A stretch of 44,376 bases of DNA from Bauldia litoralis (GTDB taxonomy: Bacteria; Pseudomonadota; Alphaproteobacteria; Rhizobiales; Kaistiaceae), in NCBI GenBank assembly GCA_945882315.1, contig CAMCWB010000030.1:1-44376 (forward strand), given 5' to 3'. Below are positions 20,761-30,011 of this stretch, piece after piece; position 1 is the first letter of the stretch, and every line of letters starts with the position of its first letter. Position numbers and translations under genes: made by a program. Below the pieces are notes generated by a model. That model worked only from the letters and a program-made list of their open reading frames with translations. It had not been told where the DNA came from and did no database searches.

Positions 20761-22935
20761 GTGGCGGGCGACAGAGTCATTTCCGTCATGGTGCCGGTCG
20801 CTGTGGAAGCTCCCTATACATATAGGGCGCCCGCCGAATTCGACCTCCGGCCGGGCGACATTGTCGCGGTGCCGCTGGGGCCCCGCGACGTGATCGGCGT
20901 CGTCTGGGATGATCCGCCGGACCCGACCATCGGCCATAACCGGCTGCGGCCCGTCGCCGCGAAATATGACGCGCCGCCGGTGCCCGAAGCCGTCCGCCGC
21001 TTCGTCGACTGGGTGGCGAACTACACCCTCGCCCAGCGCGGCATGGTGCTGCGCATGGTCCTGCGGGCGCCGGGCGGGCTGGCGCCCGAAAACCCGATTG
21101 CCGGCGTGCGCCGGGCCGGGGCCGATCCGGAGCGCATGACGGCGGCGCGGAAGCGCGTCCTCGATCTCCTCGACGGCGACCTTGCCTGGTCGAAATCCGG
21201 CTTGGCCGCCGCCGCCGGGGTCTCGTCGAGCGTCGTTCAGGGCCTCGTCGATGGCGGCGTGCTGGAGCTGATTGAAATCCCGGCTAGGCCGGCAGCGTTG
21301 CCGCCTGATCCCGATTTTGCCGAAACGGTTCTCAATATCGAGCAGGCGGAAGCGGCCGATCATCTCCGCAAGGCGGTTGAGGCCAATGCCTATTCCGTGA
21401 CGCTGCTCGACGGCGTCACCGGCTCCGGCAAGACGGAAGTCTATCTCGAAGCCGTTGCGGCGGCGCTGAAGGCGGGCAAGCAGGCGCTGGTGCTGGTGCC
21501 GGAGATCGGCCTCACCACGGATTTCCTCGACCGGTTCGCGCTCCGCTTCGGCTGCCGGCCGGCGGAGTGGCATTCCGAGGTGCCGCCACGCATGCGCGAG
21601 AAGGTCTGGCGGGGTGTGGCGACCGGCGAGGTCCGGGTCGTGGCCGGTGCCCGCTCCTCGCTGTTCCTGCCCTTCGCCGAGCTCGGGCTGATCGTCGTCG
21701 ATGAGGAGCACGACCTCGCCTACAAGCAGGAGGACCGGGTCTTCTACAACGCCCGCGACATGGCGGTGGTGCGCGGCCATCTTGCCGGCTTCCCGGTGGT
21801 ACTGTCCTCGGCGACGCCCTCGGTCGAATCGCGGGTCAATGCCGATGCCGGCCGCTACCGCCGGATCGTGCTCACCGATCGCTACCGCGCCGCGAAGCTG
21901 CCGGAAATCACGGCGATCGGCATGCGCGGCAACCCGCCCGAGCGCGGCCGCTTCATCGCGCCGGGGCTGGTCGCGGCGATCGGCGAGACGCTCGCCGCCA
22001 AGGAGCAGGCGCTTCTCTTCCTGAATCGGCGCGGCTATGCGCCGCTGACGCTCTGCCGGCACTGCGGCCATCGCTTCCATTGCCCGAATTGCTCGACCTG
22101 GCTGGTCGAGCATCGCTTCCGCGGCATCCTGATGTGCCACCATTGCGGCCATACCGAACCGCGGCCGGAGGCCTGCCCGGCCTGCGGCGAGGAAAACAGC
22201 CTGGTCGCCTGCGGGCCGGGTGTCGAGCGGCTCGGCGAGGAGGTGCGCGAGCGCTTCCCCGAAGCGCGGGTCATCGTCATGTCGAGCGACATCCTCGGCG
22301 GGGTGAAGCGGCTACGGATGGAACTCCAGTCGATCGCCAAGGGCGAGGTCGACATCGTCATCGGCACGCAGCTCGTCGCCAAAGGCCATAATTTCCCGCT
22401 CCTGACCCTGGTCGGCGTGGTCGACGGCGATCTCGGCCTGGCGCGGGGCGACATGCGGGCCGCCGAGAGGACCTTCCAGCTCCTCAGCCAGGTCACCGGC
22501 CGGGCGGGCCGGTCGGGCGGCGCCAGCCGGGCCTTTCTCCAGACCTTCGCCCCCGAGCATCCGGTGATGCGGGCGATTGTCGCGGGGGACCGCGAAGCCT
22601 TCTATTCGCGGGAGATCGCCGAGCGCCGCGATGCGCAACTGCCGCCTTTCGGCCGGCTCGCCGGCATCGTCGTTTCCGGCCCCGACCGGCCCTCGGCGCA
22701 ATCCTACGCGAACGCCTTCCGCCGCGCCGCGCCGGAGCGGCCGGATATCGCCGTGCTTGGCCCGGCCGAAGCGCCGCTTGCTGTTATCCGCGGGCGCAGC
22801 CGCTTCCGCCTCCTCGTGCAGGCGCCGCGCAGCGCCGATCTCCAGTCATGGCTTCGCGCCTGGCTGGCGGCGGCGCCGGCACCGCGCGGTGGCGTGCGCG
22901 TGCAGGTCGACGTCGATCCGCAGAGCTTCCTCTGA
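20761..22935 (+). CDS. priA: Primosomal protein N' (replication restart helicase)
   Basis: PriA binds stalled replication forks and reloads the replicative helicase. The 724-residue protein has an N-terminal 3'-DNA-binding domain (from about residue 8), Walker A GVTGSGKT at 218-225, and DEEH helicase motif II at 314-317. A Cys-rich zinc module starts at CRHCGHRFHCPNC and continues through MCHHCGH to CPACG. The C-terminal helicase and CTD follow. The start is a GTG at 20761 with AAGGA about 11 bases upstream; an ATG at 20788 is a possible shorter start. It lies upstream of the atp operon, as in related genomes. Confidence 0.94.
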   Translation: MAGDRVISVMVPVAVEAPYTYRAPAEFDLRPGDIVAVPLGPRDVIGVVWDDPPDPTIGHNRLRPVAAKYDAPPVPEAVRRFVDWVANYTLAQRGMVLRMVLRAPGGLAPENPIAGVRRAGADPERMTAARKRVLDLLDGDLAWSKSGLAAAAGVSSSVVQGLVDGGVLELIEIPARPAALPPDPDFAETVLNIEQAEAADHLRKAVEANAYSVTLLDGVTGSGKTEVYLEAVAAALKAGKQALVLVPEIGLTTDFLDRFALRFGCRPAEWHSEVPPRMREKVWRGVATGEVRVVAGARSSLFLPFAELGLIVVDEEHDLAYKQEDRVFYNARDMAVVRGHLAGFPVVLSSATPSVESRVNADAGRYRRIVLTDRYRAAKLPEITAIGMRGNPPERGRFIAPGLVAAIGETLAAKEQALLFLNRRGYAPLTLCRHCGHRFHCPNCSTWLVEHRFRGILMCHHCGHTEPRPEACPACGEENSLVACGPGVERLGEEVRERFPEARVIVMSSDILGGVKRLRMELQSIAKGEVDIVIGTQLVAKGHNFPLLTLVGVVDGDLGLARGDMRAAERTFQLLSQVTGRAGRSGGASRAFLQTFAPEHPVMRAIVAGDREAFYSREIAERRDAQLPPFGRLAGIVVSGPDRPSAQSYANAFRRAAPERPDIAVLGPAEAPLAVIRGRSRFRLLVQAPRSADLQSWLRAWLAAAPAPRGGVRVQVDVDPQSFL

Positions 22936-22974
22936 AACGTACCAAAAGCCGCAGAAACGAGGCCGTCCGCCGTA

Positions 22975-23003
22975 TTGCCCTCCCACAATCGCTGTGTTAT
23001 CCA
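22975..23003 (+). promoter_or_regulatory. Candidate promoter of the atp operon
   Basis: TTGCCC (22975-22980) and TATCCA (22998-23003) have the ideal 17-base spacing, about 135 bases before atpH, in the only long gap between priA and the operon. The long leader could carry regulation. The -10 is imperfect. Confidence 0.42.
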
Positions 23004-23136
23004 ACCGGCGAATTTCGGGGCGGGGCCGGTCTGCATTCGTTGCGGCGGGCCCTCGAAAGACAATCCGTTCAAGGCCTTAGAATTCGGGCCGAGCCACATC
23101 CGGGGCTTGGACCGCGCGTCGGAGAACTGGGATCAG

Positions 23137-25226
<2,090 letters not shown>

Positions 25227-25258
25227 GGCGATTTTCGGGAACAGGTGACTAGCCGGCC

Positions 25259-27608
<2,350 letters not shown>

Positions 27609-27629
27609 CGTATCCGACAGGAGGCTCCC

Positions 27630-27872
27630 ATGAACGGCAAGGTCATCTTCCTGCTCGGGGGCCTCATCATCGGCGCGCTGGTCGGCTATGTGACCCGCCC
27701 CGAATCGGCCGAGATCACGCTCGGGCCGCTTTCGATCGAGGTCCAGGGCGACCGGGCGGCACGAGGCGACGGGCCGCTGACCAGCGGCCAGTGGCAGCAT
27801 ATGGCGATCTTCACGGCGATCGGCGGGATCATCGGGCTTGGCGCCGGGCTCGCTACAGGCCGGCGGGCCTGA
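27630..27872 (+). CDS. Small two-helix membrane protein inside the atp operon, function unknown
   Basis: This 80-residue product has two hydrophobic helices rich in small residues: about 4-22 (KVIFLLGGLIIGALVGYVT) and about 59-77 (AIFTAIGGIIGLGAGLATG), with GxxxG-like spacing suited to helix packing. A polar stretch of about 35 residues links them (EITLGPLSIEVQGDRA). GACAGGAGG lies seven bases before the ATG. It lies 21 bases after atpD and about 75 before atpC, where rhizobial operons normally have no gene. It could help assembly or regulation of ATP synthase, but that is only position-based. I do not recognise a family. Confidence 0.8.
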   Translation: MNGKVIFLLGGLIIGALVGYVTRPESAEITLGPLSIEVQGDRAARGDGPLTSGQWQHMAIFTAIGGIIGLGAGLATGRRA

Positions 27873-27888
27873 GAGACTTTTTATTTTC

Positions 27889-27932
27889 GCAATGTCGAAC
27901 GGAAAACCGGTTTCCATTTTTCCTGACATTGC
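27889..27932 (+). promoter_or_regulatory. Structured spacer ahead of atpC
   Basis: GCAATGTC (27889-27896) and GACATTGC (27925-27932) form a perfect 8-bp outer stem. Inside, GGAAA and TTTCC pair around an AACCGGTT palindrome, with a run of five T after it. The atpC ribosome binding site comes directly after the outer arm. It may set atpC dosage, be a processing or pausing site, or derive from a rhizobial intergenic repeat with an AAACCGGTTTCC core. Confidence 0.55.
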
Positions 27933-27946
27933 TTGAGGAACGGGAC

Positions 27947-28372
27947 ATGGCCGAAGCGTTTCAATTCGAACTGGTCGCGCCTGAGCGGCTGCTGATGTCG
28001 GAAACCGTCGACCAGGTCGTCGTGCCGGGCTCGGAAGGCTATTTCACGGTGCTGAAGGGCCATGCGCCTTTCATGTCGACGATGCGGCCGGGCGTGGTGG
28101 ACGTAACGCCGGCCGGCGGTGGTGCTGCTCAGCGCATCTTCGTGCGCGGCGGCTTCGCCGATGTCAGCAATGAAGGCCTGACGATCCTCGCCGAGCAGGC
28201 GATCCCGCTCGCCGAGATCGACGGCGAGACGCTCGCCCGCGAAGTGAAGAACGCGGAAGAAGACGTTGCCGACGCCAAGGACGGCGCCACCAAGGATGCC
28301 GCCGAACTCCGCCTCAATCAGCTCAAGGAAGTTCAGGCCGCGGTTTCGGGCGAGCGCTCGTCGGCTCACTAG
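27947..28372 (+). CDS. atpC: ATP synthase F1 subunit epsilon
   Basis: Epsilon is part of the rotor and inhibits ATP hydrolysis. The product is 141 residues: an N-terminal beta-sandwich (about 1-88, starting [15 protein letters not shown] and containing [15 protein letters not shown]) and a C-terminal helical part rich in Ala, Glu and Lys. TTGAGGAACGGG precedes the ATG at 27947; the frame is open further upstream inside the previous gene but without homology. Its stop overlaps the convergent rppH stop by two bases, with no terminator visible. Confidence 0.95.
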
Positions 28373-28887
28373 GCCTTGTTCGGGATATCCCGGAAGGCCG
28401 CGACGACGTCCTCATAGACGGCCCGCTTGAAGGGCACGATCAGCCCGGGCAGGCGCTCGAGCTTCTCCCAGCGCCAGGATGAGAATTCCGCCTTGTGCTT
28501 GCCGCCGCCGGGGTGGAGCACGTCGATCTCGCTATCCTTGCCCTCGAAGCGCAGCGCGAACCATTTCTGCTTCTGGCCGCGATAGCGCCCTTTCCAGGAT
28601 TTGCCGACCAGATCCGTGGGCAGGTCGTAGGTCAGCCAGCCCGGTGCTTCCCGGATCAGGCTCGCCTTGTCGATCGAGGTCTCCTCGTAAAGCTCACGAA
28701 GTGCGCCGGCATAGGGATCCTCGCCCTCGTCGAGGCCACCCTGCGGCATCTGCCACCAATGGCCTTCACCCTCACCCTCGGCGTCCTTGTCGGAGCGGTT
28801 GCCGGTCCAGACGAGACCGTCGCGGTTGAACAGCGCGATGCCGACGCAGGGCCGGTAGGGCAGGCGCTCGATGTCTTTCTGCTTCAT
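28369..28887 (-). CDS. rppH: RNA pyrophosphohydrolase
   Basis: RppH removes pyrophosphate from the 5' end of mRNAs, opening them to RNase E decay. The 172-residue protein has the Nudix box at about 50-72 ([10 protein letters not shown] then RELYEETSI), with catalytic glutamates in REL-EE. The N-terminus [19 protein letters not shown] and the WYDLP-like segment LTYDLPTDL are typical of RppH. The start at 28887 overlaps the stop of the upstream deacetylase gene by four bases. It is the last gene of a long minus-strand series. Confidence 0.95.
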
Positions 28888-30011
28888 GTGCGATCCGATG
28901 GGACGAGGGCGGTCAGGGGGACGATCTCGATGCCGCGACGGGCGGCGTCGCGGGCGAAGTCGACGATGCGTTCGATCGTGATCGGAAAGGCGCTGGCCGA
29001 GGCCACCGCGTAGCCGCGGCGCTTGGCGAGCGCCTCGATCTCGGCGAGACGCGCGTCGATCGCCTTGGCGTCGGTCTCGGCGTCGATGACCGCGTCGGCA
29101 CGGATGAAGGGCGTCAGGCCCTTGGCGATCTGGTCGGCGCGGCTGGCGCCGGAGGAGCCGTCGTCGAAATAGAGAAGGCCGCGCTCGCCGACCTCGGCAA
29201 GGACCGGCCTCAGGGCCTCCTCGTCGCCGGTGAAGCGCGCGCCGAGATAGTTGGTGACGCCGACATAGGTCGTCAGCCGGCTCATCAGCCAATGCAGCCG
29301 GTCGAGATTCTCGTCCGCCGGTGCGTCGACGGTGAGCGTGTGCGGGCCGGGGTCGTTGCCGGGATAGCCGTAGGGCTCGAGCGGCACCTGGAGGAGCACC
29401 TCATGGCCGGTGTCGCGGGCCCGGGCGAGAAGCCGGGGCAGGTCTTTGGAATAAGGCGCGAAGGCCAGCGTGACCTCGCCCGGCAGTTCCTCGATCGCCG
29501 TGTTGCTGCCGTCGCGGGCGACGCCGATGCCGCCGACGACGATGGCGATGCGGCTCGCCGAGCCGGCCGGCGGCTCGGCGGGGCGGGCATAGGCATCCAT
29601 CGGGCGCATCCCGTCCGGGCCGATGCGCGGCAGCAGGCCATGCTCGCCATCCTCGACGAGCTCTTCGATCGGCGCCGTCGCCAGCCGGATCGGCGGTGCG
29701 GCGGAGGGGTCGGTGATGACGACTTCGCCAGTATCGAGATCGCTCAGACCGCCGTCCGGGACGGCTTCGATCAGGCCGGGGCTGCCCGGCGGGAAGATCT
29801 TCGTCGCCTTGGCCAGGGGCTTGGCCGGCGTCGCGTCGGCCGCGACCGTCATGGTCTCGCCCGGTATCGGCGCGGTCATGTAGCGGACCGCTCCGATCGC
29901 CGCGATCGCCGCAAGCAGCGCGGCGGCGGTCGCATAGATGAGTGGACGGCGGCGCGACGACCGACGCTCTCCGGGCAGGCCGAGAGGCTTGGTCAGTTCG
30001 TCGTCGGGCAT
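28884..30011 (-). CDS. Divergent polysaccharide deacetylase family protein (DUF610)
   Basis: The 375-residue protein has a short cytoplasmic N-terminus, one membrane anchor (about 24-43, [19 protein letters not shown]) and a periplasmic C-terminal domain (about 150-375). That domain has the DUF610 pattern: [45 protein letters not shown] and [11 protein letters not shown]. The family has a polysaccharide-deacetylase-like barrel and is nearly always linked to ctpA and an EnvC-like gene, as here, so it probably acts in peptidoglycan or envelope processing. Catalytic activity is unproven. It overlaps rppH. Confidence 0.88.

Follow-up and report, generated by a model that had tools for sequence, protein, structure and literature searches.

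The bacterial F1Fo ATP synthase is usually pictured as an eight-subunit-type machine served by a few helpers, among them AtpI, AtpZ, AtpTheta and zeta. AtpI (PF09527) is a small, glycine-rich membrane hairpin of two helices that is encoded together with the ATP synthase genes. AtpZ of alkaliphilic Bacillus and orfX of Nonomuraea represent extra small hydrophobic genes of atp operons that occur in some species only; atpZ lies just before atpI, and orfX lies between atpI and the gene for the a subunit (PMC4453477). AtpTheta of cyanobacteria is described as a small inhibitor of the synthase located in the thylakoid membrane (PMC11124002). Zeta (PF07345), a component of the alphaproteobacterial F1Fo enzyme, is described as an F1 inhibitor encoded outside atp operons (PMC9317440).

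Here we analyze an 80-codon gene, for which we use the working name X, located between atpD and atpC in a 44,376-nucleotide stretch of Bauldia litoralis DNA (the window). X is a further family among the small membrane proteins of atp operons, at a new place between the genes for the beta and epsilon subunits. It shares with AtpI the small size, the glycine-rich two-helix hairpin and the company of ATP synthase genes, with AtpZ and orfX the status of an extra small hydrophobic operon gene present in some species only, and with zeta that of a lineage-specific extra. AtpTheta and X are both small and lineage-specific, but AtpTheta is described as an inhibitor in the thylakoid membrane, and X belongs to the operon, between atpD and atpC.

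The gene and its operon

The relevant features of the window, all on the forward strand, are as follows.

23697..25226, +, atpA, F1 alpha subunit; recognized from its translation, no profile scan
25259..26137, +, atpG, F1 gamma subunit; recognized from its translation, no profile scan
26163..27608, +, atpD, F1 beta subunit (Pfam PF00006, PF02874); directly upstream of X
27619..27625, +, AGGAGGC, resembling a ribosome binding site, a few bases 5′ of the X start codon; read directly
27630..27872, +, X, predicted membrane hairpin of 80 residues, its two helices bearing the glycine zippers G11xxxG15xxxG19 and G65xxxG69xxxG73; from the ORF, homologs, dN/dS, hydropathy and AlphaFold
27947..28372, +, atpC, F1 epsilon subunit (Pfam PF02823); directly downstream of X

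The X frame begins with ATG 21 nt from the atpD stop (27608), and the ATG of atpC at 27947 lies 74 nt past its end. A preliminary description of this DNA had proposed an extra membrane-protein gene with a good ribosome site at this place. Both points hold: the flanking genes are confirmed by Pfam, the product has two hydrophobic segments, and an AGGAGG-type site precedes the ATG. Upstream of atpD are what we take, from their translations, to be atpH, atpA and atpG. In this genome the genes for Fo are on a separate contig, C2, which carries atpI (identified by Pfam) along with genes that, named by eye, are presumably atpB, atpE and two b genes. Directly behind atpC, on the opposite strand (28369-29292), lies a gene whose product we assume, again by eye, to be a Nudix/RppH-like protein; an RppH-like ORF is also found near atpC in another locus, L004.

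A search for promoter- and terminator-like sites between 27000 and 28600 found none, which is consistent with co-transcription of X, although the search used only the sigma-70 consensus and is a weak test. An RNA element was ruled out, as the region 22500-28700 gave no Rfam match at gathering score.

The open frame of X is by itself weak proof of a gene, since in this GC-rich DNA the ORF list holds a 605-residue reverse-strand ORF covering the same place. More telling is the conservation of its homologs. In ten pairs of close relatives, chosen by hand from 630 possible pairs, dN/dS ranged from 0.08 to 0.45, as under purifying selection, and in nine of the ten, third codon positions carried more than half of the changes. 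Conservation together with these dN/dS values means that X is more than a chance ORF, an explanation that we therefore exclude. X is a conserved coding sequence and a genuine member gene of the F1 operon. One could still imagine that the ORF is a spacer whose translation, through translational coupling, fixes how much beta is made relative to epsilon, while the peptide itself is irrelevant. The very short distance from atpD (1–10 nt in 14 of the 15 rows of family f42) would suit such an arrangement. However, the constraint on amino acids, the invariant glycines and proline retained across divergent rows, and the fact that relatives manage without X make this hardly credible.

Distribution, gain and loss

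Homologs of X were identified at 36 distinct loci. Every one of them is flanked by atpD and atpC in the same orientation, with a distance of 1–106 nt from atpD and of −1 to 82 nt to atpC. The proposal in the preliminary description hinged on homologs at the same position in other atp operons, and the search supplied them at all 36 loci, with one further weak match elsewhere. The loci comprise seven from the gene's own family, 14 from each of two other families and one Methylobacterium bullatum record. They thus span three family-level groups of its own order, one of which includes Methylobacterium (group g89).

Within these groups the presence of X is uneven. In its own family, where the atpD–atpC interval was read in all 28 genomes, X is present in seven, and the intervals of the remaining 21 (5–143 nt) hold no X-like frame. 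Profile searches detected it in 14 of 18 genomes of the second family and in 14 of 199 of the third. A first protein search of 101 relatives had returned six genomes, the source genome included. In samples of the order, a profile made from the first homologs matched 21 of 397 genomes and a deeper profile 18 of 337, the latter figure including a weak match outside the atp locus in genome G202; in two samples of the class, the source genome was the sole match (1/385 and 1/327). For many genomes in these order and class searches 13–16 first-pass candidates were scored per genome (27 in the family of 199), so the absences are less certain than the matches. A scan of named genomes had Methylobacterium jeotgali among the matches listed, with other named species possible. 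Group g89 is assigned to Methylobacterium on the ground that locus L008 of G397 falls within the M. jeotgali locus L007, and the two were entered as a single case, under M. jeotgali.

We also inspected, by way of their atpD, 30 more genomes of the order in which the profile had no match in the operon. The second family contributed four of these and the third 19, in addition to seven others; G202 was included. The atpD–atpC interval could be measured in 28 of them, G068 being without an atpC match and G789 without a true atpD, and none of the 28 intervals (−1 to 369 nt) contained X. One genome without X (G785) has a 62-residue frame that starts in the interval and runs into atpC. In two others the gap is occupied by ORFs unrelated to X, of 64 residues in G107 (locus L137) and 86 residues in G028 (L139), neither with a Pfam match. 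The atpD–atpC gap may be a site that takes up small genes.

The weak match in G202 (L116:1489-1746) encodes 86 residues, has an E-value of 1.7e-4 and reads GALVGVVTRP at the end of helix 1. The 3.2-kb locus around it contains no atpD or atpC match, and the genome's own atpD–atpC interval, 139 nt long, is without X. This protein may be a remote relative encoded away from the operon. Mobile sources of X were considered and rejected: no relative was confirmed among viral contigs (103 candidate stretches), and the single match in a plasmid collection is the 2.8-Mb M. bullatum record, in which X again sits between atpD and atpC.

To follow presence and absence among relatives, we mapped them on a rapidly made tree of AtpD (74 rows), built without G015 (a 76-residue fragment), ten genomes of the own family lacking X (the rest of group g9) and G029; at least 16 changes are needed on this tree. 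The Methylobacterium clade is represented by six rows, of which G141 alone is without X. Because its AtpD is nearly identical to those of G329, G217 and M. bullatum, which have the gene, loss of X is the simplest reading in that clade. This probable loss and the patchy presence in general indicate that X is dispensable over evolutionary time. In the tree of X itself, G000 and G006 are separate from the other five rows of the own family, at a point where long branches meet; horizontal transfer and loss are both candidate explanations of this pattern.

Our literature searches found no published description of the gene. Figure 4 of a published survey of atp loci indicates ‘hypothetical intervening ORFs’, so the X ORF may have been drawn before; the name Methylobacterium does not occur in the part of the survey's text that was examined (PMC4154653). 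Another source gives the gene order of Methylobacterium as epsilon-beta-gamma-alpha-delta, with no extra gene (PMC5709465).

Predicted structure and similarity to known families

The hydrophobic segments of X span residues 3–21 and 58–76. Two such segments are present in all 36 homologs, and the first carries a GxxxGxxxG motif in each. Across 35 aligned rows the invariant residues are G11, G15, G19, P24, G65 and G69. The mean net charge is +1 for the N-terminal part, −1.3 for the loop and +2.1 for the C-terminal part, with boundaries set by a simple rule and misplaced in some rows (for example, that between loop and C-terminal part in G012); with this limitation, the pattern fits a protein having both ends in the cytoplasm. 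AlphaFold models of X and of the M. jeotgali protein (mean pLDDT 75.8 and 77.7) both consist of a helix, a beta-hairpin and a second helix, but they are not independent, as they draw on a common set of 35 sequences. The helices are fairly sure, and the loop with the beta-hairpin has a pLDDT of about 58–68 in blocks of ten residues. X is accordingly predicted to form two glycine-zipper transmembrane helices with a beta-hairpin-containing loop between them.

Searches against known families gave weak similarities. The window protein reached no cut-off in Pfam or NCBIfam and had no match in PHROGs. When all 36 members were scanned against Pfam and NCBIfam, by E-value only, the weak matches fell mostly on glycine-rich or membrane families. 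bPH_10, a YqeB-like PH-domain profile, matched 33 members (best E 1.6e-4; 15 bits for the window protein, against a cut-off of 27), and an NCBIfam LPXTG-anchor model matched 28 (best E 8.6e-4); we attributed both to the glycine-rich helices and set them aside. Against the sequence profiles of solved structures (PDB) the best E-value was 0.6, and Foldseek searches of the PDB and viral models returned nothing with E below 0.001. Homology to the c subunit was rejected (hhalign probability 0.4%).

Further similarities are to glycine-zipper envelope proteins. Gly-zipper_Omp touches 24 of the 36 members (best E 5.9e-4) and YMGG 22 (best E 3.7e-4). In the VIA structural comparison, SlyB ranked second (Z 5.7, rmsd 2.6, 54 aligned residues), after the Dot/Icm outer-membrane cap (Z 6.6) and ahead of photosystem I chain K (Z about 5), although Z-scores below 8 may reflect a common arrangement only. 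Together with the weak relative away from the atp genes in G202, these matches could mean that X is a general envelope protein of the SlyB/YMGG type that makes use of a strong, constant promoter and has no tie to the synthase. We consider this distinctly unlikely. The same atp gap is occupied in 36 of 36 loci, and the window protein reaches the gathering score of none of the glycine-zipper 2TM families PF13488, PF13441 and PF05433: YMGG scored 9.5 bits against a required 28.9, and the other two were not listed. SlyB and YMGG do have two helices with GxxxG repeats, but X, inspected by eye, is without a lipoprotein-type N-terminus, and its location is tied to the atp genes. Thus, X resembles the glycine-zipper families and SlyB in general shape only.

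A putative accessory protein of the ATP synthase

AtpI and zeta were sought in genomes with and without X. AtpI (PF09527) is present in all 54 genomes checked, 30 with X (out of 35 such genomes) and 24 without. Zeta is present in 51 of the 54, including 28 of the 30 with X, and differs from X in being encoded outside atp operons (PMC9317440). X as a replacement for AtpI or zeta is therefore rejected. Zeta gave no match in three near-complete genomes, all of Methylobacterium: X is present in two of them, G217 and G953, and absent from the third, G141.

The preliminary description had gone further and likened X to AtpI. If the analogy held, X would be an Fo assembly chaperone that acts on the c-ring, or on the joining of c-ring and F1, and leaves the finished enzyme. 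Its general build, a small glycine-rich two-helix hairpin encoded in an atp operon, fits this idea, and there are faint traces in sequence: weak matches to PF09527 occur in five of the 36 members (best E 0.036), and helix 1 aligns with that of AtpI. Yet the window protein is not listed for PF09527 at E-values up to 10, and the hhalign alignment covers just 14 glycine-rich residues at 26% probability. Moreover, AtpI has an Asp, D79, that is invariant in 15 AtpI rows and stands four residues beyond the final zipper glycine in its first helix. The position of X aligned with it, residue 23, is occupied by Arg in the majority of rows, otherwise by Ala, Leu, Lys or Thr, and never by Asp. X also lacks the long N-terminal part of AtpI, and its loop, with the predicted beta-hairpin, is longer. 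The Fo operon of the source genome encodes an AtpI of its own, and X is in the F1 operon. Finally, c subunits are identical between some genomes that differ in X: G254 compared with G235 and G373, and G329 compared with G141 (73 aligned residues in this pair). This comparison covered, among Fo subunits, c in the 30 of the 54 genomes for which an AtpI locus had been retrieved; it makes it less likely that X is required for building the c-ring. Given these points and the presence of AtpI in all 54 genomes, we regard a chaperone role as unlikely. Of the earlier suggestion of an undescribed AtpI-like partner, the partnership is kept, since the 36 homologs in atp operons make a partner of the ATP synthase the best inference; the likeness to AtpI is a general one.

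AtpZ offers a different precedent, being an extra small hydrophobic protein of the atp operon with a part in Mg2+ homeostasis (PMC4453477). X is likewise extra and patchy, and it might similarly be an ion-homeostasis protein, for instance for Mg2+ uptake, that rides with the atp operon and is no part of the synthase. We find this very unlikely: the only invariant residues of X are glycines and a proline, neither helix has an invariant residue that is acidic or polar, and the window protein does not reach the Pfam family of AtpZ and AtpI. Its place between atpD and atpC is different as well, and it is by position that X is set apart from orfX.

The reading that we favor, with a probability of roughly 0.55, is that X serves the F1Fo ATP synthase as an accessory protein that is lineage-specific and dispensable. 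A gene that is gained and lost and nevertheless fixed at one place of the atp operon in all 36 clear homologs is best explained by a job on the ATP synthase. Each of the two helices has a glycine face, which suggests that they pack closely against other helices. X would be synthesized alongside beta and epsilon and would insert as a hairpin, with both ends cytoplasmic and the loop periplasmic. Its glycine faces might pack on Fo (the rim of the c-ring, the a subunit or b/b′) or on copies of X itself arranged around Fo. There it could stabilize or tune the membrane part of the synthase, or aid the docking of F1 during assembly, in a role confined to conditions that only some of the species meet. 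We count against this accessory role the patchy presence, the lack of a matching change in c, the weak G202 match away from the atp locus, the weak matches of the members to unrelated membrane families, such as simple glycine-rich helices produce, and the outcome of the structure-based searches, which gave no decisive hit.

A more specific version is that X is a stoichiometric supernumerary membrane subunit, either a glycine-zipper hairpin on the outside of Fo or a belt of copies, with its beta-hairpin in the periplasm. It would come and go between closely related species that otherwise have a standard enzyme. This possibility is tentative and on balance doubtful, but if true, it would provide an independent bacterial parallel to the extra small membrane subunits of mitochondria. 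The conserved gene between beta and epsilon in Methylobacterium gives a direct way to ask if an additional membrane subunit is part of the enzyme in some bacteria, and near-identical natural pairs with and without X, such as G329 and G141, allow a clean comparison.

In the course of these searches, additional synthase genes came to light in some relatives. Second PF09527 matches occur in G257, G785, G790 and G792, and in three of these genomes (G257, G785 and G790) there is also a second AtpD at 50–54% identity. G017 has a second pair of epsilon-like and AtpI-like genes (L057, G017:C1149). The extra AtpI-type, epsilon-like and AtpD copies suggest a second synthase in some relatives, which in G017 and the others we presume to be perhaps of the N-ATPase type.
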